A stretch of DNA of 26,140 bases from a virus. Positions 3,747 to 24,271 of this stretch are shown here, in pieces. Location of the stretch: the IMG/VR virus record IMGVR_UViG_3300036398_002903, positions 1 through 26,140 of that record; one strand, written 5' to 3'. The notes below the pieces were generated by a model that was not told the DNA's origin, did not search any database, and worked only from the letters and a program-made list of their open reading frames with translations. Made by a program: the position numbers and the translations under genes. How positions within the stretch are numbered: the first letter of the stretch is position 1; each line of letters opens with the position of its first letter.

Positions 3747-4202
3747 ATGCCAGTCTGGACTTTCGCGGACAACCTCGCCTTCACTCGCAGGTATGACTTC
3801 GCCCACATCATCCGGTCATCTGACGACCCCGAGGCTACCCTTGAGTCACTCCGCGAACCTTCACCCCTGCGCCCGACTGAGAACAGTCCTTGGTTGTTGT
3901 GGCGTCTCAGAAGGTGTTGGGACCATCTGAGATCAGACCGTGTGGTCATGACGCTTCAAGCCACGCGAGAAGCCATGCTGCACCGGAAGTCTTTGCCTCG
4001 GGAGGCTTGGCTGGTGTTGGGATTGGCCTCCCTACCCGAAGACGAATGGATACCGCCGCAAGACCCCTTCGACCTGATTGAAGAGATTACGATTTCAGTT
4101 GACGGCGACCAAGACTTCAAGGATGAACTAACCGCATGGGTCCGCAATACGAAACGTCGAGCCACAATCCAACGAGTGCTTCATTGGATTCCTTGGTCCT
4201 GA
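3747..4202 (+). CDS. Unknown 151-residue protein, first gene of the primase operon
   Basis: The frame is open from a GTG at 3675, but ATG 3747 (MPVWTFADNL) is the more natural start because the preceding 24 codons cross the repeat-rich control region. AGGGG lies 14 bases upstream, rather far, so initiation may be weak. The protein is rich in Trp, Arg and acidic residues, has no signal peptide or membrane segment, and ends in a basic helix followed by WIPWS. It overlaps the start of the primase-helicase gene by 67 bases, which suggests coupled translation. I do not recognise the family. Position suggests an early regulator or replication accessory factor, but this is context only. Confidence 0.65.
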   Translation: MPVWTFADNLAFTRRYDFAHIIRSSDDPEATLESLREPSPLRPTENSPWLLWRLRRCWDHLRSDRVVMTLQATREAMLHRKSLPREAWLVLGLASLPEDEWIPPQDPFDLIEEITISVDGDQDFKDELTAWVRNTKRRATIQRVLHWIPWS

Positions 4203-6823
4203 GTCGTTTCAAGACTTGGCGCGGACTCGTGTACGCAGGGCGTTTTGGTGTCGTTGGAACGCCAATTGACTCGTTCGGCGACCTTGCTGAGTTGACCGCT
4301 GAAGCCGAAAAGCGCGTATTCGAAAAAGGCTCGGGACCTGCGGTCATGACCGCTTTCACGCCCAACCATCGCCGACGCAACGAAGACTTCACTGCCGAAG
4401 CCGTTGTAACCGGTTTGGTCATAGACCTTGACGACGGTGTGCCTTCACTAGAACCCATCCGAGCAATGCTGGCTCGTCTCAGAGCACAGGACGTTGCGTA
4501 TCACTTTCAGTGGCGCAAAGCCGCCACGACATACAAGATCCATGTGATCTTGCCCTATGCCGAACCCGCGCCGGCCAAAGATCCCAGCACCATCCGAGAA
4601 CAACAAGCTGCGCTAACGCAGCGCATTCTGCCGGAAGGAATCCCGTTCGACTATGCCACGACGAAGGCTGCGGGTCTGTGCTACCTGATGACGCCTCGCC
4701 CCGGTTCGCAGGAACGGGTCAACACCGAGATCCACTTCGGTGCGAACGCCCTCGACTTCGTGGCGATGTATCCACCTTGGCTCCAAGGTGAAACCCGCCG
4801 AAAGAGGTCTAGGGCGGAAGCCACCAACGAGACGAAGATCATCCTCGGCGCGATGGAAGTCAATGAATGGGTCGAGTCCAAGGGTGCGTGGGACGTGACG
4901 TGTCCAGTCGGCCACGGAGACGACTACAAGTCGAAGACGTACCTGTACCCACACGGAACGATCTCTTGTATGGCAGGCAAGTGCCAAGGCAAGCCGCTGG
5001 CGTGGTTCCTTTCGCACCTACCTGACGATGTACGGGAACAAGTCATCGCGTCGTCGGTAACTCCGCTGAAGCTGGAACTTGCACGAGTCGAACCCAAAGT
5101 TACGGTCGCACAAGCCCACGATTCGATGCGCGAAGCCCTTGCCGATAACCGAGCCATCGAAGGTCATGCCACGGTGGTGCAGGTCTCGACAGGCGCAGGT
5201 AAAACCCGGGCTATTGCGGAATATCTGAACATGTATTCAGCCCCCTTCGAAGGCGAACGGGACTCGTCTGGCTTGTCTGCGGTGCTGGCGGTACCAACGA
5301 ATGCTCTGTTGCGCGAAATCGAACCGCGCCTCACCGTCCCACATGTTCGTAAATTCGGTGTCTTGGCGGTCCTGAACGACGACGGTACCCCCGCGTGTAA
5401 AAAATTCGCCTTGGCCAAGTCTCTGCAAGACTCTGGCGGTAACGTCCACCGGTTGCTGTGCAGCCATTGTGAGTATCGTGAGGACTGTCCAGCCCGAAAC
5501 AACGCCACGGTCGGCGACGGATCGTTGACCCTGACCAACCACGCTTTGATGCCGACCGTGGCGCAAAAGTTGCTGGAACGAGGGCGGCATCCGTTGCTTG
5601 TGTGGGACGAATCCCCACAGTGGGTTGAAACCGGCAACGTGACGCTCAAGGATCTGGAATGGTTGACCTTGGAGTTCGATCGCGAAGCAAAACCACCCAG
5701 AGGCATGGATGCGCTACTCGACGCAATGGTCGACGTCAAGTTGTTCTCAGACCGTTACCGTGGCGCGGTACGACCGGTGCTGGAAGCACTCAGGTGGATA
5801 CGCTCCGCGTTTCAAGGCATCATTTCGTGTCATGAAGCCGTTCAGCAATGGGCCGCTACACTAGGAAACGGCATGGTGCTGGCCAAGGCCCGCGACGCCA
5901 CCGGCATTGAAAAGTCCGGAGACGCTTGGAAAGACCTGATGGCGTGTTTCGCCGCAGCGGCGATGCTGAACCATTCCGAGATGGGTTTTGATGGTATGCG
6001 TGGAGACACCCAGCAACGGGTCCTGCGGGCAGAACGAATTATGCGCGTGTTGGGCTTGATGGCTGGTGAAGACGCGGTCTTGGTGCTGGACCAGCATCAT
6101 GTCTCGATCTCGTCTCTGACAGCTAGCGGGGCGTTGTTCCGCAAGTATGGCGGGGTCGTACTGGATGCCACGGCAAACCTCGCTGAACTTCGTCGCTTGC
6201 GCCCAGATCTCCGTCCCGTGACATTGCGCGTGGCTGACTCCGGTGAGACTGAACGCTACCTTCAGCACCTTCCGGGGTTGGATCGGAAGTCTCTCAAGCA
6301 CCGTCCCGAGCGGCTGACGCAATGTGTCTCTCACGCAAAGTCCTCAATCGCTCGATGGGCAAAAGCGGGGCGGGTCGAGGCCAAGACTGTGGTGTTTACC
6401 TACATGGCCTACGCAAAGACGGTTCAGGAGCAGTGGCCTGAAGCCGAGGTCGGCTACTTCGGCAACACCCGAGGTTACGACAGGTTCTTTCAGGAGGGCT
6501 TCAACACGTTCGTGACATTGGGCGACCCCGTGACGAATTTGTCGGCTCTGGCTCTGCAATGGCGCGTACTGACGGGGGCAGTGCCGGTATCGAACGACGT
6601 GGAATGGCAACGCTACATCGCGGCGTCGGCTGAATCAGAACTTGCACAGGCTCACGGTCGTGCCCGCAACCCACAAGCCTTGAAGGGTCGTGGTGGTCGT
6701 TTGCATCTGCATTACGGGCGTAAGGTTCCGGCTGGCTGGGACTCCGAAACCACCCGAGTGGATCCTGTTTCGTTGAATTTGGACTTTACTTCTCTGACGG
6801 GCGCGGCTACGGATACGGAATGA
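4136..6823 (+). CDS. Primase-helicase fusion: AEP-like primase plus Fe-S DinG/XPD-like SF2 helicase
   Basis: 895-residue protein. The N-terminal part (about 20-215) resembles archaeo-eukaryotic-type primases: catalytic DLDDG with D97/D99, a KIHVIL motif with H136, and a third acidic motif around D172 (FDYATTKAAG). A Cys/His segment at 256-283 (CPVGH, then H273, C278, C283) could bind zinc. The C-terminal part is a helicase: Walker A STGAGKT (351-357); four cysteines C421, C442, C445 and C451 between motifs I and II, as in the XPD/DinG iron-sulfur domain; TNHALM (467-472), typical of that family; Walker B-like DES (491-493); and motif VI QAHGRAR (838-844). It should prime and unwind phage DNA. 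Start ATG 4136 has AAGGA about 12 bases upstream. It ends in an ATGA overlap with the next small frame. Phage primases are more often joined to SF3 or SF4 helicases. Confidence 0.85.
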   Translation: MGPQYETSSHNPTSASLDSLVLSRFKTWRGLVYAGRFGVVGTPIDSFGDLAELTAEAEKRVFEKGSGPAVMTAFTPNHRRRNEDFTAEAVVTGLVIDLDDGVPSLEPIRAMLARLRAQDVAYHFQWRKAATTYKIHVILPYAEPAPAKDPSTIREQQAALTQRILPEGIPFDYATTKAAGLCYLMTPRPGSQERVNTEIHFGANALDFVAMYPPWLQGETRRKRSRAEATNETKIILGAMEVNEWVESKGAWDVTCPVGHGDDYKSKTYLYPHGTISCMAGKCQGKPLAWFLSHLPDDVREQVIASSVTPLKLELARVEPKVTVAQAHDSMREALADNRAIEGHATVVQVSTGAGKTRAIAEYLNMYSAPFEGERDSSGLSAVLAVPTNALLREIEPRLTVPHVRKFGVLAVLNDDGTPACKKFALAKSLQDSGGNVHRLLCSHCEYREDCPARNNATVGDGSLTLTNHALMPTVAQKLLERGRHPLLVWDESPQWVETGNVTLKDLEWLTLEFDREAKPPRGMDALLDAMVDVKLFSDRYRGAVRPVLEALRWIRSAFQGIISCHEAVQQWAATLGNGMVLAKARDATGIEKSGDAWKDLMACFAAAAMLNHSEMGFDGMRGDTQQRVLRAERIMRVLGLMAGEDAVLVLDQHHVSISSLTASGALFRKYGGVVLDATANLAELRRLRPDLRPVTLRVADSGETERYLQHLPGLDRKSLKHRPERLTQCVSHAKSSIARWAKAGRVEAKTVVFTYMAYAKTVQEQWPEAEVGYFGNTRGYDRFFQEGFNTFVTLGDPVTNLSALALQWRVLTGAVPVSNDVEWQRYIAASAESELAQAHGRARNPQALKGRGGRLHLHYGRKVPAGWDSETTRVDPVSLNLDFTSLTGAATDTE

Positions 6824-8690: not shown

Positions 8691-9002
8691 CTAGACAGGC
8701 ATCTTGACCGAGTTGCCTTCGGCTCTTTCGTGCAACAGTACGCACATCTCAAGCCGTTCAAGTCGTTCTGGCGTACACTCATCCCCGAAGGATTCGTTGA
8801 AAACATGCACCATGTAGCCCACTCGACGACGAGTGGCCAAGGCTTCGTCGAGGATTTGCTCAACCAACGCATCCACGACGTAGTCCGGCAAGATGCATCC
8901 GTTTTGCCGCAACGTAGTCCGAACGTCATCACGCACCCGAGCGACGTTATCGGGATTGTATTCTGCTCGACGAACGGGATCTTCAGCGGGAGGCAGCGTC
9001 AC
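8691..9002 (-). CDS. Unknown 103-residue protein
   Basis: GTG at 9002 overlaps the endolysin stop (GTGA on the minus strand). The protein (start MTLPPAEDPVRRAEYNPDNV) is charged and helical, with two cysteines and no signal or membrane segment. Its TAG stop (8693-8691) is immediately followed by GGGGG, forming the ribosome site of the metallopeptidase. Family not recognised. A place between endolysin and metallopeptidase does not by itself indicate a lysis role. Confidence 0.6.
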   Translation of the reverse strand: MTLPPAEDPVRRAEYNPDNVARVRDDVRTTLRQNGCILPDYVVDALVEQILDEALATRRRVGYMVHVFNESFGDECTPERLERLEMCVLLHERAEGNSVKMPV

Positions 9003-9454
9003 GGGCGACGTCCGTAGTTCGCAATTTCGGGGTCGTCACGTCGCACACGCCGTTTGGATACCCGATCCGCCCAATTCCCGTCCACCACATCAACGTGGGT
9101 CAGGTCCACGCCCACCACGATGCCAATGTGGCGTCCCGGTCCCGCATCTGAGCGACCCCGAGTCTTGAAGAAGATCACGTCACCCGGAGCCGGTTCACGA
9201 ACCAACCAACCATGCTCTCCAAACACCCGTTCAGTGTGGGACACCGAAGCCAACGGATTCGCCCGTTTTCGGTTGGGTACAACATCCCCCGGAATAGGCC
9301 GACCAGCCTCGCGAAACACCCATGCCACGAAATGAGCGCACCACGGCTCGGCTCGGGCTCCGGTGTATTTATCGACGTCGACGCCCCGATTTGACCCCTT
9401 TGGGTCTTCTCTGAAGCCGACTTGCGAAAGGGAAATCTGGACGACGTCAATCAC
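8999..9454 (-). CDS. CHAP-domain endolysin
   Basis: 151-residue single-domain peptidoglycan hydrolase of the CHAP (NlpC/P60-like) amidase/endopeptidase family. The catalytic Cys39 is in EPWCAHFVAWVFREAG, the His109 in GRHIGIVVGV, and the polar third residue in VDGNWAD (about 125-127). It has no signal peptide, so release would depend on the holin-like protein encoded just upstream. No separate wall-binding domain is seen. GTG 9454 is chosen because AAGGAG precedes it at good spacing inside the end of the holin gene. Its layout (holin, then endolysin) is the classic lysis pair. Confidence 0.85.
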   Translation of the reverse strand: MIDVVQISLSQVGFREDPKGSNRGVDVDKYTGARAEPWCAHFVAWVFREAGRPIPGDVVPNRKRANPLASVSHTERVFGEHGWLVREPAPGDVIFFKTRGRSDAGPGRHIGIVVGVDLTHVDVVDGNWADRVSKRRVRRDDPEIANYGRRP

Positions 9455-9793: not shown

Positions 9794-10636
9794 TCACTGC
9801 GTGTATAGCACGTTCAATGCCTGTCGAAAGCCAGAAGCCACGCGACGGCGGATTTCGTCGGTAGAGAGGTTGAAGTCCAAACCGGATCCGTGCGGCACGA
9901 TCGGCACAGCAACGTCGTCTCGTCGGGTTTGAATGTTCGGCTCGACATACAGGCCCACATTCAAACAGGCTTCGAACAATTGCACGAGCCCTTCTCGCCG
10001 GATGGGATCAGGAGCCCCATCAGTGTCGGAATCTCTTCGGGTGAGGTACAGACTGACGGTCGGTTCAGGGCGGTTCGCAAAGACCTCGTGAGGGCAATTG
10101 TTGCCCCAACCACCGTCCACATAGAGGCGGTTACCCGTGCCCAGAGAAGGAATCTCTTGAGCCGCAGCCACCGGAAACACGGCAGTGCTGGCCGTCAAAA
10201 CTTCCCAGATCAGCACATCAGGGTGCTGCCACGAGGTAACGTAGACCGGGCGCTCGGTGTAGCAATCAGACACCACCACACACAAGGGCACCTTGACGTC
10301 GCCCATCTTGGCGTCCTTGAAGATGTCCTTCAGAGCCGCCCGCACATAGGACCAGTCGTGCATCCCACTTTCGCGGGTCAACACAAGTCGGGGGTGAAAC
10401 CGAATGACCTTCTTCCCACCTGTGAGGTGGTTCTTCTGAAACAAGCGAACCATCTGGGCTTCAAGGACAAGCGGGTCCAAGCCCAAAGCCATCCCAGCCG
10501 CGATAACGGCACCAATTGAAGCGCCGGCATAACCTGCGGCATCAAAGCGGCCCAGCCAAGCCTGAAGACCACCCCACAACGTAGGTCCGTGTGAAGCGCC
10601 GCCAGCAATGACAAAGTAGCGACGACTTCGCTTCAT
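9794..10636 (-). CDS. Patatin-like phospholipase
   Basis: 280 residues with the Ser-Asp catalytic dyad of patatin-family lipid acyl hydrolases. The nucleophile elbow is GASIG with Ser40, and the catalytic Asp174 is in VDGGWGNN. The oxyanion-hole loop AGGASHG (11-17) has His where many relatives have Arg. The expected product hydrolyses membrane phospholipids. No signal peptide is present, so it would act from the cytoplasm, on the inner membrane after holin action, or as a virion cargo. It lies directly before the holin-like and endolysin genes in the late operon, with GAGGTG before its ATG. A lysis, membrane-rupture or host-remodelling role is inferred. Confidence 0.85.
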   Translation of the reverse strand: MKRSRRYFVIAGGASHGPTLWGGLQAWLGRFDAAGYAGASIGAVIAAGMALGLDPLVLEAQMVRLFQKNHLTGGKKVIRFHPRLVLTRESGMHDWSYVRAALKDIFKDAKMGDVKVPLCVVVSDCYTERPVYVTSWQHPDVLIWEVLTASTAVFPVAAAQEIPSLGTGNRLYVDGGWGNNCPHEVFANRPEPTVSLYLTRRDSDTDGAPDPIRREGLVQLFEACLNVGLYVEPNIQTRRDDVAVPIVPHGSGLDFNLSTDEIRRRVASGFRQALNVLYTQ

Positions 10637-15738: not shown

Positions 15739-16650
15739 TCACTTCTCTTGCAGCATGATTGCCAACGACCTCGCATTGTACCGGAAAACACCATCAACCG
15801 TAACCGGCTTCACGTTGAAGGACTTGGTGAAGCCCTTGGCCACCATGGGTCCGTTCTCGCCTGCTCCGTTACAGGGCACGAAACGCCCCTGTAGAGCGTC
15901 GCCAGTCACCGTTACGAACGGCCGCCGCGCAAAGCCGGTGGACGCCAGCCCGAAGGCAACTGACGCTGCCGAAGCAAGCATGTCTTCGTTCCACGCGAAG
16001 CGATCGACACTAAAAGCCGCGTATTGTGCGGTCGCGGTCGCACCAGACGATGTCTCCCCTTGCAGGACCACTCCCAGATACCCGCTTGCCACGGAATGCG
16101 TCATAAAGGGCACAGAACCCACCGAGGCTCCGTTTACGTAGTACCGCACGGTACCGGCGTAGGACTTGGTTGCGAACGACCTCCAAGGACCGTCCCCGTT
16201 CGCAATGTGATACCCGTGAACCGTCCAGTCGCCCTCGGACCCGAACCGCAAAGTTGCCGTGGCGGTATCCCCCGGAAACAACCCCAATGAAAAGGCTTGG
16301 TTGCCCCACAAAGGACTAACGGTCGATCCAAAACCCGAAGCGGACGTCATCGAGTAGCCGGCGTCTGCCGAGGTACGGGTAAAGGTCGTAGTCACCCCTG
16401 TAGGTGTGGTGACCTGACGAGCGAATGACCAGCGATGGCCGTCACCGCGAACCCAGCCTTCCAAGGCGAGGGCGTCCTCCAGAGCAAGGGGCGGTGTCTC
16501 AAAGGACAAACTTCGCTTCTTGGCGTAGGTGAGTCCTTCAAGTTGCTCATCCAAAGCCCCTCGGCCATACGACTCGACGGAGTCGTCATCAAGCGAAAAC
16601 GAGTCGAGAATGGCCTCGATGGCATAGCCATCAATGCGAAGAAACGCCAT
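15739..16650 (-). CDS. Probable distal tail protein
   Basis: 303 residues from ATG 16650, which overlaps the tape-measure stop as TGATG and has GGAGG five bases upstream; an in-frame TTG at 16662 is less likely. The start MAFLRIDGYAIEAILDSFSL and the later KKRSLSFETPPLALEDALAL resemble the N-terminal tube-like domain of distal tail proteins. The middle is beta-rich (WTVHGYHIANGDGPWRSF). Location directly after the tape measure and before the hub/adhesin is the classic distal tail position. The assignment relies mainly on gene order. Confidence 0.7.
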   Translation of the reverse strand: MAFLRIDGYAIEAILDSFSLDDDSVESYGRGALDEQLEGLTYAKKRSLSFETPPLALEDALALEGWVRGDGHRWSFARQVTTPTGVTTTFTRTSADAGYSMTSASGFGSTVSPLWGNQAFSLGLFPGDTATATLRFGSEGDWTVHGYHIANGDGPWRSFATKSYAGTVRYYVNGASVGSVPFMTHSVASGYLGVVLQGETSSGATATAQYAAFSVDRFAWNEDMLASAASVAFGLASTGFARRPFVTVTGDALQGRFVPCNGAGENGPMVAKGFTKSFNVKPVTVDGVFRYNARSLAIMLQEK

Positions 16651-19115
16651 CAGGTCCTCCAACGACCGTTTGCAAAGCCATCAACCGAACGCTCTCCGAT
16701 GCCTGTTCGGATACCCGTTCCTCGCCATTTCGTTTCAGCGTTCTGTGTAGCGTAGATGGCTCCTGCTACCTTGTAGCTTTGTGGCAGATTGCGGAACTCT
16801 CGGGTGAAGTCACGCAGAGCCTGAGTGTTTTCGTCCAAAGCCGAGGTGTTCGCGTCGATGGGATCATCACCTCCGCTAGAAGGAGGTCTGAAGTCGTCCC
16901 TGTCGAGGTACTTGCCGAAGCCTTTGAGGCCAAACACGTCGCGAGCAATCTTCACAATCATATTGTTGAAGCTGATCGCACCCCCGAGCATCGTATCAAT
17001 AAACCACATGAACCCGGCATTGAGATTACCGACAACCACGTTCAAATCGAAGAACAAACCGAAGAGATTCAACCCCGACGTGGCAATGGCAGAAATGAAC
17101 CACACGAGCATCTCAATAAACGGGGAGAGGCCAACGACCACCGTAGAGACAGCGGAAACAATGCCAGACACAACCCCTATGACAAGGGTCACGATATTCA
17201 CAAGGGGACGCAGAGCCGCGCCAACCAACACACCGACAGCGGCGAGCAAATCCTGCAAGGCGGTGCCCAGCATAGGCAAACCAGACAAAATTTCACCCAG
17301 AGCCAACCGCACGAGTTGCTCAAGGCCCACCATGATGCTACCAAGAAGATCCGTAACAGGCTTCAAACCATCAATGATGTTGAAAAGCAGCCCAGCAAGA
17401 GCCCCCAAAGCCGCTCCCAACGGACCCGCCACTGCCCCCGCAGTCGCACCCGACATGACGCCGGACAGAGCAGAGGTAATGCCTTCTGTAATACCTCCTG
17501 ACATCTGTCCGATTGCTCCCGCAATAGGCCCCACAAGACCTTGACCGGAACCAATGGCGGTGACTGCATCGCCAACCGGACGGTTGAACTCGATCATGTC
17601 TTTCAAGACTTGCTTCTGCACTTCCTCCCAATCCTTCAGCCATTTCTTCATGATCTGGTCGTGGCGCGAAATGCCGTTGTCGAATTGAACAACACTACTA
17701 CTGAAAGGTGCCGCCAATGCCCGCCCCTCAGCAACGAAATCCTTTTCCTCCGTGGCGGCTAACCATTTATCAAAGGCCGCTTCTGCACTGTGCAAATCGG
17801 AAGAGGTAATACCTTGCTTCCGATCAGATTTCGGGGTGGGACCGGTAACCTTTTGAACTACTCTCGGCAATACCCCAAGGGCCGAGGCAGTTTCCTTGAT
17901 GGCTTCAATCAATCCGGCGAGAGCGCCTTCGCCGGATTTGCGCATGGCGTCCAAGGTCTCTTTTGACATAGCAGACACATCAGCGAGAATCTTCTCCCGA
18001 TCATAGAAGAGGTCGTCTCCTGTGGCCTTTCGGAAAGACTTGAGCAAGCTGGTGAGTTGGTCTTCCTGCTCGGTCTTTTTATCCATAGCCGCAAATTCGG
18101 ATTTGAGTACCAAAGCGTCGGCTTCTTTGCGAACATTAGCAATGGTCTCATCCATCCACTTGCGCCAAATAGAAGACCCTCCCACCTTCAACGCGCCAGC
18201 CAAGCCCTCAACAAGGCGCAAACCGAGGTATTCGCCCAGCGACCCCCAGTCTTGTGATTGCAGCAGCGTCTTTACGTCATCGAAAAACGACGTCAGACCG
18301 GGCAGAAATTCACTCAGAACTTTAGCCAAGCCGACCTTGAGAGTGTCGATTGTGTTCTGCATCGACGCATCGAAACGAGCGAACGACTCAGCCGTGCGAT
18401 CAGTCGTGTTCGCGTACTCATCCAAGGTGCCTTGCGACTGACGAGCGACTTCCTCAACGAATGCGAGTTGCTTTTCTTCAGCCGACAGAGCCTCGACAGT
18501 CTTGTTCACCTTGGCGGCGTAGGTCTCGTTGGCCTGACCGACCGAGACAATGATGCCGAGGTTATCGAGCAGCAGCCGGGACGACCGAGCCGTACCGACG
18601 ATGATCGAGTTGAACATGTAGTCGAAGGATTGCCCGGTCTTGAGGGCTGAAGCCTCCGCGACCATGACAAGTTGCTTGAACGTCTTCTCGTTGATTCCCA
18701 TTGAGTCGGCCAAATTGGCCTTCTTCATGAGTTCCGCGTCGGACACCATTCCGTTGGTGGCCTTACGGTATTCTTCGATTGACTTGCCGGCGTTCTTGAA
18801 GAACTGCTCGGCAGCCATGATTTTAGAGCCTTCCGAGGCTGCGGAATACGCCTTGGTGATGCTGCCGGCCAAAGTATCGAAAATAGTATTCGTTACCTTG
18901 ATGTCACGCGACAACCGGGTCATTGAGTCGCGGAAAGAGTTCGTCTTGCTGGACGCCTCTTCAAGATGCTTGGTCACCACCTTGACGCGGGAGCCGATTT
19001 CCTCGCCGGCCTTGTTGAACCTCTTGATGACCTCGATCGAGCCGTTCATGGCCCCATCGAACTTCTTGGTGTCGGCTACGAGTTGAGTGACGATCTGGTC
19101 GGTATTCGTAGCCAT
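16650..19115 (-). CDS. Tail tape-measure protein
   Basis: 821 residues. The N-terminal half is helical and polar, with repeated Lys/Glu/Ser heptad-like stretches. Around residues 515-740 there are several long hydrophobic Gly/Ala-rich segments (for example GAVAGPLGAALGALAGLLFN and VNIVTLVIGVVSGIVSAVST), as in tape-measure proteins that insert in the membrane during DNA ejection. The C-terminus is polar. By the usual relation of about 1.5 angstrom per residue, the tail would be roughly 120 nm long. It starts at ATG 19115, five bases after the end of the frameshifted chaperone. Confidence 0.92.
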   Translation of the reverse strand: MATNTDQIVTQLVADTKKFDGAMNGSIEVIKRFNKAGEEIGSRVKVVTKHLEEASSKTNSFRDSMTRLSRDIKVTNTIFDTLAGSITKAYSAASEGSKIMAAEQFFKNAGKSIEEYRKATNGMVSDAELMKKANLADSMGINEKTFKQLVMVAEASALKTGQSFDYMFNSIIVGTARSSRLLLDNLGIIVSVGQANETYAAKVNKTVEALSAEEKQLAFVEEVARQSQGTLDEYANTTDRTAESFARFDASMQNTIDTLKVGLAKVLSEFLPGLTSFFDDVKTLLQSQDWGSLGEYLGLRLVEGLAGALKVGGSSIWRKWMDETIANVRKEADALVLKSEFAAMDKKTEQEDQLTSLLKSFRKATGDDLFYDREKILADVSAMSKETLDAMRKSGEGALAGLIEAIKETASALGVLPRVVQKVTGPTPKSDRKQGITSSDLHSAEAAFDKWLAATEEKDFVAEGRALAAPFSSSVVQFDNGISRHDQIMKKWLKDWEEVQKQVLKDMIEFNRPVGDAVTAIGSGQGLVGPIAGAIGQMSGGITEGITSALSGVMSGATAGAVAGPLGAALGALAGLLFNIIDGLKPVTDLLGSIMVGLEQLVRLALGEILSGLPMLGTALQDLLAAVGVLVGAALRPLVNIVTLVIGVVSGIVSAVSTVVVGLSPFIEMLVWFISAIATSGLNLFGLFFDLNVVVGNLNAGFMWFIDTMLGGAISFNNMIVKIARDVFGLKGFGKYLDRDDFRPPSSGGDDPIDANTSALDENTQALRDFTREFRNLPQSYKVAGAIYATQNAETKWRGTGIRTGIGERSVDGFANGRWRT

Positions 19116-19119
19116 CCGG

Positions 19120-19646
19120 TCACCTCAACGAACGGCGTTCGCGGTTAGAACCGCCCGCGCCTTTCTTGTTGCGCAGCTTGATCCACTCAAGCCAGAGGTA
19201 AAACTCCTCTACAGACATGGATCGTACCACGTCCAACGTCACGCCAAGGTGGTCAGCGACCAAGAGATGCGCTTGAGTCTCTCGGTCGCTTTTCAGTTTT
19301 TTGCGGCGGCCTTGGCCTCACCCATCAGGGACATCAACGCCGTCACCACGGGGTCGATGAAGCTGCCCTGCGCTGGCAGGTCAAGCAGCACGGCTTCATC
19401 CGCTTGGTCGAAGATGGGCTTTCCATCAGCCGGGTCATAAGCGCACTGAATGACGATCTGAGCCATGACTCGGGCCTGCGCAGCAGCATCCCCATCACTG
19501 GCCTTGGAGAACATCGTCGCCTGTGCCAAAGTCGGCGAGCGGACCTCAACGGTCAGGACTTCCTCGCCGTCGCGAATCTCCACGACGGTGCGGCGAATGG
19601 CTTTTGAGGACTGATCAATGAGACGCTGGCGCAGAGTGGTAGTCAT
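19120..19646 (-). CDS. Tail assembly chaperone, -1 frameshift product (gpGT-like)
   Basis: Produced when ribosomes translating the 117-residue chaperone slip back one base at A_AAA_AAC (19302-19296), one codon before the normal TGA. The fusion would have 175 residues. The added tail reads LKSDRETQAHLLVADHLG, then MSVEEFYLWLEWIKLR, and ends at TGA 19122-19120, just before the tape-measure ATG. The SVEEFYLWLEWIKLR helix is typical of the T part of phage G/GT chaperones. By analogy with lambda, the G domain binds tape measure and the T domain recruits tail-tube subunits. An independent start at ATG 19218 is possible but has no ribosome site. Confidence 0.88.
19255..19302 (-). promoter_or_regulatory. 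Programmed -1 ribosomal frameshift signal
   Basis: The slippery heptamer A_AAA_AAC (19302-19296) is in the zero frame. Five bases later (19290-19278) begins a 13-bp stem, closed by 19267-19255, with one G-U wobble and a 10-base loop (19277-19268). The zero-frame stop lies in the spacer. This is the standard heptamer, spacer and stem arrangement for -1 frameshifting. The loop has a five-base complement (UCAAG/CUUGG) just downstream, so a weak pseudoknot is possible. Confidence 0.9.
19293..19646 (-). CDS. Tail assembly chaperone, zero-frame product (gpG-like)
   Basis: 117 residues (start MTTTLRQRLIDQSSKAIRRT). It is a helical, acidic protein located between tail-tube and tape-measure genes, the invariant place for this chaperone in siphoviruses. 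Its last two codons AAA AAC form the end of the slippery heptamer, and its TGA follows immediately. Sequence similarity across this family is generally low, so the call rests on position, size and the frameshift signal, which together are convincing. Confidence 0.85.
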   Translation of the reverse strand: MTTTLRQRLIDQSSKAIRRTVVEIRDGEEVLTVEVRSPTLAQATMFSKASDGDAAAQARVMAQIVIQCAYDPADGKPIFDQADEAVLLDLPAQGSFIDPVVTALMSLMGEAKAAAKN

Positions 19647-19658
19647 GCGCGAAGAATA

Positions 19659-20315
19659 TCACAGAGTCCGCTCGGAGTAGCCGGCAATCCGTCCAGTGCG
19701 GTCGTCACGCGATGCCGACAAAACCCACTCCACCGTCGCCTCGACCAGACCATCAACAGAAGTCGACCGTTCGATCGAAGTGATCTTGCCGATCCCGCGA
19801 AACAAAGGGCTGAAACCAGAGTTGACTTCGACGAACACATCCGAGCCCGTAGCACTCAGCGTGGCCAATCGCGCCATATCGTTCGGATTCAGCAGCATGT
19901 CCAAGGACAGGCTGGCATCAGCCAAACCAGAGATGCGTCGGCGAAACGGGCTGGTCGACGTGTAGACAGTGGTATCGAGCAACTCGCTGGATTCGGTCAG
20001 CGAATGGCCTTTGACTTCGCTGACGAACTCAGAAGCCGTCGTAAGCGGAATGAACGTGCCGGTCAGGGTCGGAGCCGCTGCCAAAGGCGAAGTCACGGTG
20101 AACTGGCCGAACAGGAAGTCAAACGCCGTGACACTCGTGTAGGCCAATGTCGCACCCGACACAGTGATGTGCCAAGGAAACGACGGGTCAATGCAACGGC
20201 GAGCCGCCGACGTCACTTGAAAAGACGTCGACGACAGGGTCGTACAAGCCTCTGCCGTCATGGTCGTGGGGATACCACCTCGGCGAATAGCGCACTGAAA
20301 GCCTGCACGAGCCAT
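19659..20315 (-). CDS. Second tail-tube-like protein (paralogue)
   Basis: 218 residues; ATG 20315 with CGGAGG upstream. The C-terminal half shares an ordered motif set with the neighbouring 141-residue protein: a Leu-Asp-x-Thr segment, RRRI at 125-128 followed by GLAD and alternating Ser/Leu, and IERSTSVDG at 181-189. That marks the two as duplicates. The N-terminal 100 residues have no counterpart and may be an added surface domain. As the gene is directly upstream of the chaperone, it is probably a tail-tube or tail-decorating subunit; either this or the neighbour is the main tube protein. Confidence 0.7.
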   Translation of the reverse strand: MARAGFQCAIRRGGIPTTMTAEACTTLSSTSFQVTSAARRCIDPSFPWHITVSGATLAYTSVTAFDFLFGQFTVTSPLAAAPTLTGTFIPLTTASEFVSEVKGHSLTESSELLDTTVYTSTSPFRRRISGLADASLSLDMLLNPNDMARLATLSATGSDVFVEVNSGFSPLFRGIGKITSIERSTSVDGLVEATVEWVLSASRDDRTGRIAGYSERTL

Positions 20316-20341: not shown

Positions 20342-20767
20342 TCAGATGCCCGAGCCAATGACGATCGGGTCGACGGAGCCCTCGTGCTGAAGGCTGATGC
20401 TAACCTCGACCTTACCATCGACCGAAGCCGAACGCTCAAGGGACTCGACCAGCATCGAGACGGCCAGACCGTGCGTGGCACCAGACACGACAACCGTCTG
20501 ACGGAGGATGACCGGCAAGCCGTTGGTGTAGCAGTGCTTGAGATGGGCGTAAGCCGTGTCGGCGATCTCAAGGTCACCGTCGATGCTGGCCGAAAGGTCG
20601 CGCAGACCCATGATCCGGCGTCGCAGGTTGGAATCACGGAAGTCGGTGACGTCCAGTGCTTCGCGACCGTCAGACAGATCGACCGAGATTGCGCCATCCA
20701 ACTCGGCATAGGTCGACGACGCACCAGTCGCAATCGAAACGGTAAGGTCAAAGCCAGCAATCGCCAA
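20342..20767 (-). CDS. Major tail-tube-like protein
   Basis: 141 residues. The compact beta-rich pattern (LDVTDFRDSNLRRRIMGLRD, then MLVESLERSASVDGKVEVSI) fits tail-tube proteins of long-tailed phages, and the place between tail terminator and chaperone agrees. The only in-frame start before the conserved part is TTG 20767, with AGAGGT five bases upstream, so an uncommon start codon is likely used. It shares RRRI and ERSxSVDG motifs with the next gene. The size is short for some tube families but within their range. Confidence 0.72.
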   Translation of the reverse strand: MAIAGFDLTVSIATGASSTYAELDGAISVDLSDGREALDVTDFRDSNLRRRIMGLRDLSASIDGDLEIADTAYAHLKHCYTNGLPVILRQTVVVSGATHGLAVSMLVESLERSASVDGKVEVSISLQHEGSVDPIVIGSGI

Positions 20768-22816: not shown

Positions 22817-24271
22817 CTAAAGAACGGTTCTTCGCTCTAGAACATTTGCGATTTTGACGCCCGGTCGCGGCGCGGCTATATGGAGCGTCTCCCGCTCTAG
22901 AACGTCTGCTGTTTTGACACCCGGTCCCGCTACGGCTACATGCAAAGTAGACCGGCCTGAGAGTACGAGAACTTCTTCCCCCCGAAAGCGAAAGCGACTA
23001 GGTACATCAAACGGGGCTGGCTGGAAGCCTTCTCCGAAGGTCAGCACATCGTCCAGCGTCAGGCTCCCTTGGCCGAGCAAGACAGCAGACGCGGTTCCGT
23101 CAAAGGACAAGACGTCGAGGGAGATCGTGCCGGTTGCAACGTGCGTCTGCGACCCGACACCGTCGACGGCCGCATCGTCGAGGGTGACGACGCCGGAGGC
23201 AAAGACCACCGCCGCGACGTCGCCAGTGCAGGAGACAGCGTCGAGGGTGATAGCGCCCGACGCAACGTGCGTCTGTGTGCCAGAGCCCGCCACGGTGGCG
23301 TCGGCGAGGGTGATAACGCCCGTGCCAAACACGACAGCGGCGACGCTGCCCGTCGAGGTGACGGCGTCGAGTGTGATTGCGCCCGTGCTGGCGACGACAG
23401 GCGAGCCAGCGCCCGCCACCGTGACGGTGTCGAGGGTGACAGCGCCTGTACCGAACACGACAGCGGCGACGGTGCCTGTGCTCGTGGCGTCGTCGAGGCT
23501 GATAGCCCCGGACCCGACAACCACCGGAGAGGCGCTGCCGGCAACCGTGACGGCATCCAGCGTGATAGCGCCAGTACCATCGACGGATGACGCGCCGACA
23601 TCGCCCGATCCCGCGACGGTGACGGTGTCGAGAGTGACCGCGCCCGTGCCGAAGACGACGTCGGAGACGACGCCACTGCAAGCGACGTCGTCCAAGGTGA
23701 TGGAGCCGGTGGCGACGTGGGTCTGTGAGCCGCTACCCGCGAACGCCACCGTGTCGAGGGCGACGCCCCCGGTGGCGACGATGACGGGCGAGCCGCTTGC
23801 GGCAACGACCACCGTGTCCAGCGTGACGGCCCCGGTCGCAAACACAGCATCGGCCACCGTGCCTGTTGCTGTGGCGTCGTCGAGGGTGACGCCCCCGGTG
23901 GCGACGATGACGGGCGAGCCGCTGCCGGTGAATGCCACCGTGTCCAGCGTGACCGCACCTGTCGCGACGTGTGTCTGCCGGCCGCTACCAGCCGAGACGA
24001 CGGTGTCGAGGGTGACCGCACCTGTCGCAACGTGCGTCTGCTGGCCACTGCCCGAGACGGCGACGGTATCGAGCGTGACTGCGCCGGTTGCGTCTACGCC
24101 GCTACCAGACCCTGCCGTCGCGCTACCGCTGACGACGGCATCGGCGAGCGTGATGTCGCTCGACTCTTCAAGGTTGATCGGGGGATTTGGATCGTGGTTG
24201 GTGGGCTTGGTCGCCCACTGTGTCTGCGCCCACGACCGGACGACAAGGCCGTTGCCGGAAATCTGATGCAC
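22817..24271 (-). CDS. Repeat-built virion protein (18 units of about 21 residues)
   Basis: 484 residues from GTG 24271 (GGAGG eight bases upstream). After a 38-residue head with several Trp and Pro residues come 18 tandem units of the form GAVTLDTVxVxGSGxxxxVAT (about 39-421). Unit endings fall into three types: QTHVAT, SPVVVAT and VAAVVFGT. Two units (1 and 9) carry small insertions. A short linker leads to two basic 20-residue repeats (442-461 and 462-481; TLHVAVAGPGVK-type). Regular 21-residue beta units suggest a beta-solenoid or fibre. It lies between structural genes, so a head fibre or decoration protein is likely. Codon periodicity leaves long shadow frames on the other strand. Confidence 0.75.
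   Translation of the reverse strand: MHQISGNGLVVRSWAQTQWATKPTNHDPNPPINLEESSDITLADAVVSGSATAGSGSGVDATGAVTLDTVAVSGSGQQTHVATGAVTLDTVVSAGSGRQTHVATGAVTLDTVAFTGSGSPVIVATGGVTLDDATATGTVADAVFATGAVTLDTVVVAASGSPVIVATGGVALDTVAFAGSGSQTHVATGSITLDDVACSGVVSDVVFGTGAVTLDTVTVAGSGDVGASSVDGTGAITLDAVTVAGSASPVVVGSGAISLDDATSTGTVAAVVFGTGAVTLDTVTVAGAGSPVVASTGAITLDAVTSTGSVAAVVFGTGVITLADATVAGSGTQTHVASGAITLDAVSCTGDVAAVVFASGVVTLDDAAVDGVGSQTHVATGTISLDVLSFDGTASAVLLGQGSLTLDDVLTFGEGFQPAPFDVPSRFRFRGEEVLVLSGRSTLHVAVAGPGVKTADVLERETLHIAAPRPGVKIANVLERRTVL
22829..22948 (-). repeat. Two 60-bp coding repeats at the C-terminus of the repeat protein
   Basis: Two tandem 60-bp units encode TLHVAVAGPGVKTADVLERE and TLHIAAPRPGVKIANVLERR. 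They differ from the 63-bp family in length, charge and sequence, so they were probably gained separately. The ending TVL looks like the start of a third, cut-off unit. Confidence 0.75.
23009..24157 (-). repeat. Eighteen 63-bp tandem coding repeats
   Basis: A roughly 1.15-kb run of 63-bp units, each encoding one 21-residue Leu-Asp repeat. The first and ninth units are longer. Several units are nearly identical at protein level while neighbours differ, so unit types are shuffled rather than graded. This pattern is expected from repeated unequal recombination. Confidence 0.85.

Follow-up and report, generated by a model that had tools for sequence, protein, structure and literature searches.

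A locus on the minus strand of the window, by which is meant the whole 26,140-bp stretch of viral DNA that was analyzed, is very probably a programmed -1 ribosomal frameshift signal of the kind found in the lambda G/GT and HK97 gp13/gp14 genes. Frameshifting in tail chaperones is well known, the arrangement described here is an ordinary one for tailed phages, and the known picture of tail assembly is left unchanged. What is new is comparative evidence that the hairpin downstream of the slip site has been preserved by paired mutations in relatives, together with a survey of similar loci; covariation of the stem is unreported in the cited work on phage chaperone sites.

Organization of the G/T Locus

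The components of the locus and its flanking tail genes are listed in Table 1. An earlier note on this DNA had described positions 19255-19302 as a complete frameshift cassette, and direct reading of the minus strand bears this out, with the zero-frame A_AAA_AAC, the adjacent stop, and the 5-nt spacer (which includes the stop) all present. The G open reading frame ends in GAG GCC AAG GCC GCC GCA AAA AAC TGA. The hairpin lies where the note had placed it, with a 5' arm AGCGACCGAGAGA (19290-19278), a 10-nt loop CTCAAGCGCA (19277-19268), and a 3' arm TCTCTTGGTCGCT (19267-19255), the 13 pairs of the stem consisting of 12 Watson-Crick pairs and one G-U.

Table 1. Features of the G/T locus and flanking tail genes in the window.
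Feature	Position	Strand	Details
Gene G open reading frame, zero frame, 117 aa	19293..19646 (19646-19293)	minus	C-terminus ...EAKAAAKN*
Slippery heptamer A_AAA_AAC, G zero frame	19296..19302	minus	read from the sequence
Zero-frame stop TGA, immediately 3' of the heptamer	19293..19295	minus	kept in L003 and L093-L100
Spacer TGAAA, 5 nt, heptamer to stem, including the TGA stop	19291..19295	minus	
Predicted stimulatory hairpin, 13-bp stem and 10-nt loop	19255..19290	minus	
T extension, -1 frame, 58 codons and TGA (19122-19120)	19120..19296	minus	open frame
Tape measure protein gene	16650..19115	minus	phrog_3779, E 1.7e-13; ATG at 19115, four bases past the T stop
Major tail protein gene, second gene upstream of G	20342..20767	minus	phrog_1407, E 6.9e-13; Pfam Phage_tail_2 above cut-off

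G/T lies between the major tail protein and tape measure genes, its expected position and the arrangement also seen in lambda (PMC5009743). G matches phrog_344 (E 2.5e-7), and a profile of eleven members of its family, compared with the PDB, finds 2ob9, the HK97 gp13 tail assembly chaperone (E 5e-5). The fold predicted for G by AlphaFold2 (mean pLDDT 78) likewise has 2ob9 as its top Foldseek match (E 3e-4, TM 0.61). By PHROG match, profile-to-PDB comparison, and predicted fold, G is an HK97 gp13-like tail assembly chaperone. This identity, with the conservation in the nearest relative and in a second clade described below, supports the earlier interpretation of the locus as a G/GT chaperone frameshift cassette.

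The T Extension in the -1 Frame

The earlier note had given the -1 extension 58-59 residues and placed its stop five bases before the tape-measure ATG. The open frame is indeed there and encodes exactly 58 residues when read from the last heptamer base (LKSDRETQ...RRSLR); its stop is immediately upstream of the ATG, but the gap is four bases (CCGG). When the T region is compared with that of the nearest relative, locus L003 (76% identity in G), substitutions number 11, 8, and 23 at -1 codon positions 1, 2, and 3, respectively, and the region contains no stops in the -1 frame and five in the zero frame. Because substitutions concentrate at the third position of a frame that has stayed open, while the zero frame is interrupted, the T frame appears, on this comparison of sequences, to be under protein-level selection. 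T alone matches phrog_337 weakly (E 0.09) and aligns with the T domains of two related loci, L019 and L023, which match phrog_337 clearly. The putative T domain is short, at 58 aa vs. about 100-120 aa in most complete relatives, or approximately half the length of the phrog_337 T domains. Within T, a 23-nt stretch (19233-19211, minus strand; GACGTGGTACGATCCATGTCTGT) does not differ between the window and L003 even at silent positions, and this may be due to chance.

T might alternatively be made separately, through re-initiation or an internal start past the G stop, with no fusion produced, and TTG, GTG, and ATG codons do occur in the -1 frame downstream of the stop. However, the G stop has no ATG close by, neither the early TTG nor the GGC-GTG codon is conserved (CTT and GTC in L003), and the first conserved starts (GTG at ~19230 and ATG at ~19218) would cost T roughly the first 22-26 of its 58 residues. 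Conservation of the heptamer would then be unexplained, and we attach almost no credence to separate synthesis. The earlier note had held that a relative lacking the heptamer and stem while keeping a separate T gene would speak against frameshifting; among the relatives found, none has lost both and retained an independently started T.

Rarity and Folding of the Hairpin

AAAAAAC occurs once in the window, both strands considered, and stems of 13 bp or more that begin 5-8 nt downstream and include no more than one G-U pair are found at 4 of ~52,140 positions in the window. The 76-nt region folds as RNA at -26.6 kcal/mol (z = -2.8), an energy equally low in 1 of 200 shuffles. When the T frame was recoded synonymously using the phage's own codon usage, the observed energy or lower was reached in 39 of 5000 trials, so that the encoded protein does not by itself account for the stem; recodings of the T peptide alone average -15.5 kcal/mol, and in the same test of L003, 262 of 5000 fold as well. 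The predicted fold also contains a short outer helix (19308-19304 with 19246-19242, minus strand) that surrounds the slip site and hairpin and has a 6-bp version in L003; it would have to be melted by any ribosome positioned on the heptamer.

A pseudoknot-stimulated site was considered and rejected, since the 7 bp that the loop could form with sequence 103 nt downstream are no better than chance (P 0.11-0.25), and the L003 loop has just 5-bp matches. A search of the window against Rfam returned no match. The best match to a Shine-Dalgarno-like element, which may or may not act as a stimulator, is GGUGA, ~15 nt upstream of the heptamer.

Compensatory Changes in Relatives

Close relatives in the viral collection comprise two lineages only; no relatives were returned when G or the major tail protein was used as a query against the phage collection, or when the tape measure protein was used in a genome scan. 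L003 retains the heptamer, the TGA, the spacer, and a 14-bp stem. Eight of the 13 pairs in the window's stem are the same in L003, two have changed on one side, three are double compensatory changes, and none is broken. Slid registers leave 35-54% of cells paired. The observed covariation score was reached in 63 of 500 shuffles, which is a weak control for the window's own stem because just two sequences are compared.

A second clade, L093-L100, consists of relatives of L023 and is represented by seven distinct sequences. In every one of them A_AAA_AAC is followed directly by TGA and a stem begins 5 nt past the heptamer, and in the 10-pair register that was counted, 98.6% of cells are paired, two pairs having changed on both sides; the covariation score of this clade was reached in 2 of 500 shuffles. 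Covariation of the stem, which the earlier note had proposed as a check, is thus seen in L003 and again in the second clade. A stable stem 5 nt past the heptamer that covaries in two clades points to a hairpin-stimulated site.

Survey of Tail Chaperone Loci

Loci of similar design were sought with a pattern joining the heptamer to the stop (GCNGCAAAAAACTGAAANGC, with looser variants), in which input from the stem was limited to its first one or two bases. Two of the scans demanded GCN before the heptamer, a form that the window does not match, and yielded L027, L041, and L047 and otherwise chance controls. A locus was taken as chaperone-like if a long open reading frame ended at the pattern, was continued by a -1 open reading frame, and had at least some chaperone-family support. 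Ten distinct loci, the window and L003 included, qualified; most match phrog_344/337 or phrog_569/680, L047 being borderline in its family match and L027 matching by its T part only. In 8 of these 10 loci a stem of 8 bp or longer starts 4-9 nt past the heptamer, vs. 0 of the 41 other hits (Fisher p 7e-8). One further locus, L043, passed the open reading frame length filter without a chaperone match and was counted as chance; counted as a chaperone, it would make the proportion 8 of 11. Two loci, L061 and L063, have the heptamer without a clean stem, so the stem is common but not universal. In a separate scan of 754 bacterial genomes, phrog_344 had a match in eight. The earlier note had singled out the stem for its strength, and it is indeed strong and at the canonical distance, but the survey indicates that it is not exceptional in this gene family.

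These data bear on the reading that frameshifting is real at the heptamer while the hairpin plays no stimulatory part and arises incidentally from GC-rich coding sequence. The two heptamer-bearing chaperone loci that lack a clean stem favor it, as do the low mean energy of the T recodings and the ease with which L003 can be recoded to fold as well. Against it are the double compensatory changes between the window and L003 with no pair broken, the further compensations in the second clade, and the distribution of stems between chaperone-like loci and other hits, and we regard an incidental hairpin as improbable.

Comparison With Known Frameshift Signals

The window resembles lambda G/GT and HK97/HK022 gp13/gp14 in gene order, in its HK97 gp13-like G, and in having a -1 extension immediately ahead of the tape measure gene, and a shift into the -1 frame is expected. 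It differs from HK022, in which G_GGA_AAG lies far upstream of the stop, in having A_AAA_AAC at the stop, and its T is just 58 aa in comparison with the lambda/HK97 type. The slip site also has a counterpart in gp12/gp13 of Acinetobacter phage Loki, where AAAAAAC directly precedes the G stop and has been published as a likely frameshift site (PMC5313236). An 8-bp stem beginning 8 nt past this heptamer was found in the present analysis; unlike the window, Loki has a TAA stop, a shorter stem, a T of 116 aa, and an extra gene separating T from the tape measure gene. Burkholderia phage KL1 gp18/gp19 likewise has its heptamer abutting TGA with a predicted stem-loop downstream (PMC3483164), but the heptamer is GGGAAAC and a tail gene intervenes before the tape measure gene. 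The E. coli dnaX signal shares with the window a heptamer followed a few nt downstream by a simple hairpin (PMC4066793, PMC7618472), and differs from it in using A_AAA_AAG and an upstream Shine-Dalgarno-like stimulator.

Other phages show further variants, including AAAAAAC TCA TAA with an 8-bp stem in Moraxella Mcat28 and GGGAAAC TGA in Streptomyces Dubu and phiSASD1. The heptamer is farther upstream of the stop in Bcep176 (AAAAAAG), whose gp69/69' are annotated as lambda G/T equivalents, as it is in HK022. In the Thermobifida phage locus L079, no canonical heptamer is present within the stretch scanned.

The homopolymeric A6 run in the slip site raises the alternative of transcriptional slippage, in which the fusion would be translated from a mixed mRNA population. 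Six A residues are short for such slippage. The stop next to the heptamer and a hairpin spaced as in ribosomal signals suit slippage by the ribosome instead, and related genes use G_GGA_AAC, A_AAA_AAG, and G_GGA_AAG, all of them ribosomal slip sites and none a homopolymer; transcriptional slippage is in our judgment highly improbable.

Proposed Mechanism and Significance

Under programmed ribosomal frameshifting, which we infer to take place here, most ribosomes would read AAA AAC TGA and release the 117-aa G. The hairpin, which begins pairing 5 nt past the heptamer, would make a minority pause, and both tRNAs of a paused ribosome would slip from A_AAA_AAC to AAA_AAA, after which translation would continue in the -1 frame to yield a GT protein of 175 aa (...AAAKN-LKSDRETQ...). 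G would be made in abundance and GT sparingly. If lambda is a guide, G would coat the tape measure protein while the T part of the few GT molecules would recruit the major tail protein, and with such roles the G:GT ratio would matter in tail assembly.

In lambda, this ratio is given as 30:1 (PMC5009743). A point against the proposed frameshift is that in E. coli A_AAA_AAC shifts far less readily than A_AAA_AAG (PMC5009743, PMC4066793), although the host of this phage may be another species. The strong stem could compensate for a weak heptamer, or it could just keep frameshifting at the low level required in lambda-type assembly. As a tentative generalization, somewhat doubtful at present, A_AAA_AAC with an immediate stop and a strong simple hairpin at 5-8 nt may be a combined signal that recurs across tail chaperone families with a distant relationship or none (phrog_344/337 and phrog_569/680), the hairpin offsetting the heptamer's weakness in E. 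coli and fixing the G:GT ratio. The locus also offers a clean and compact test case, with heptamer, stop, stem, and short T contained inside 190 nt; because the heptamer is weak in E. coli, the stem's share of any frameshifting could be directly measurable.

Other Features of the Window

A 484-aa protein encoded at 22817-24271 (minus strand) consists mostly of tandem ATGAVTLDTVTVAGSG-like repeats and had no match in a Pfam search. An 895-aa gene at 4136-6823 lies on the plus strand amid minus-strand genes and has a DEAD-box match that is sub-threshold only. A patatin-like phospholipase gene (9794-10636, minus strand; PF01734, E 3e-15) is located near a CHAP-domain gene (8999-9454). Directly upstream of G, the gene at 19659-20315 (minus strand) encodes a protein whose C-terminal part resembles the major tail protein (34% identity over 121 aa, E 1e-8), the two forming a tandem tail-tube-like gene pair.
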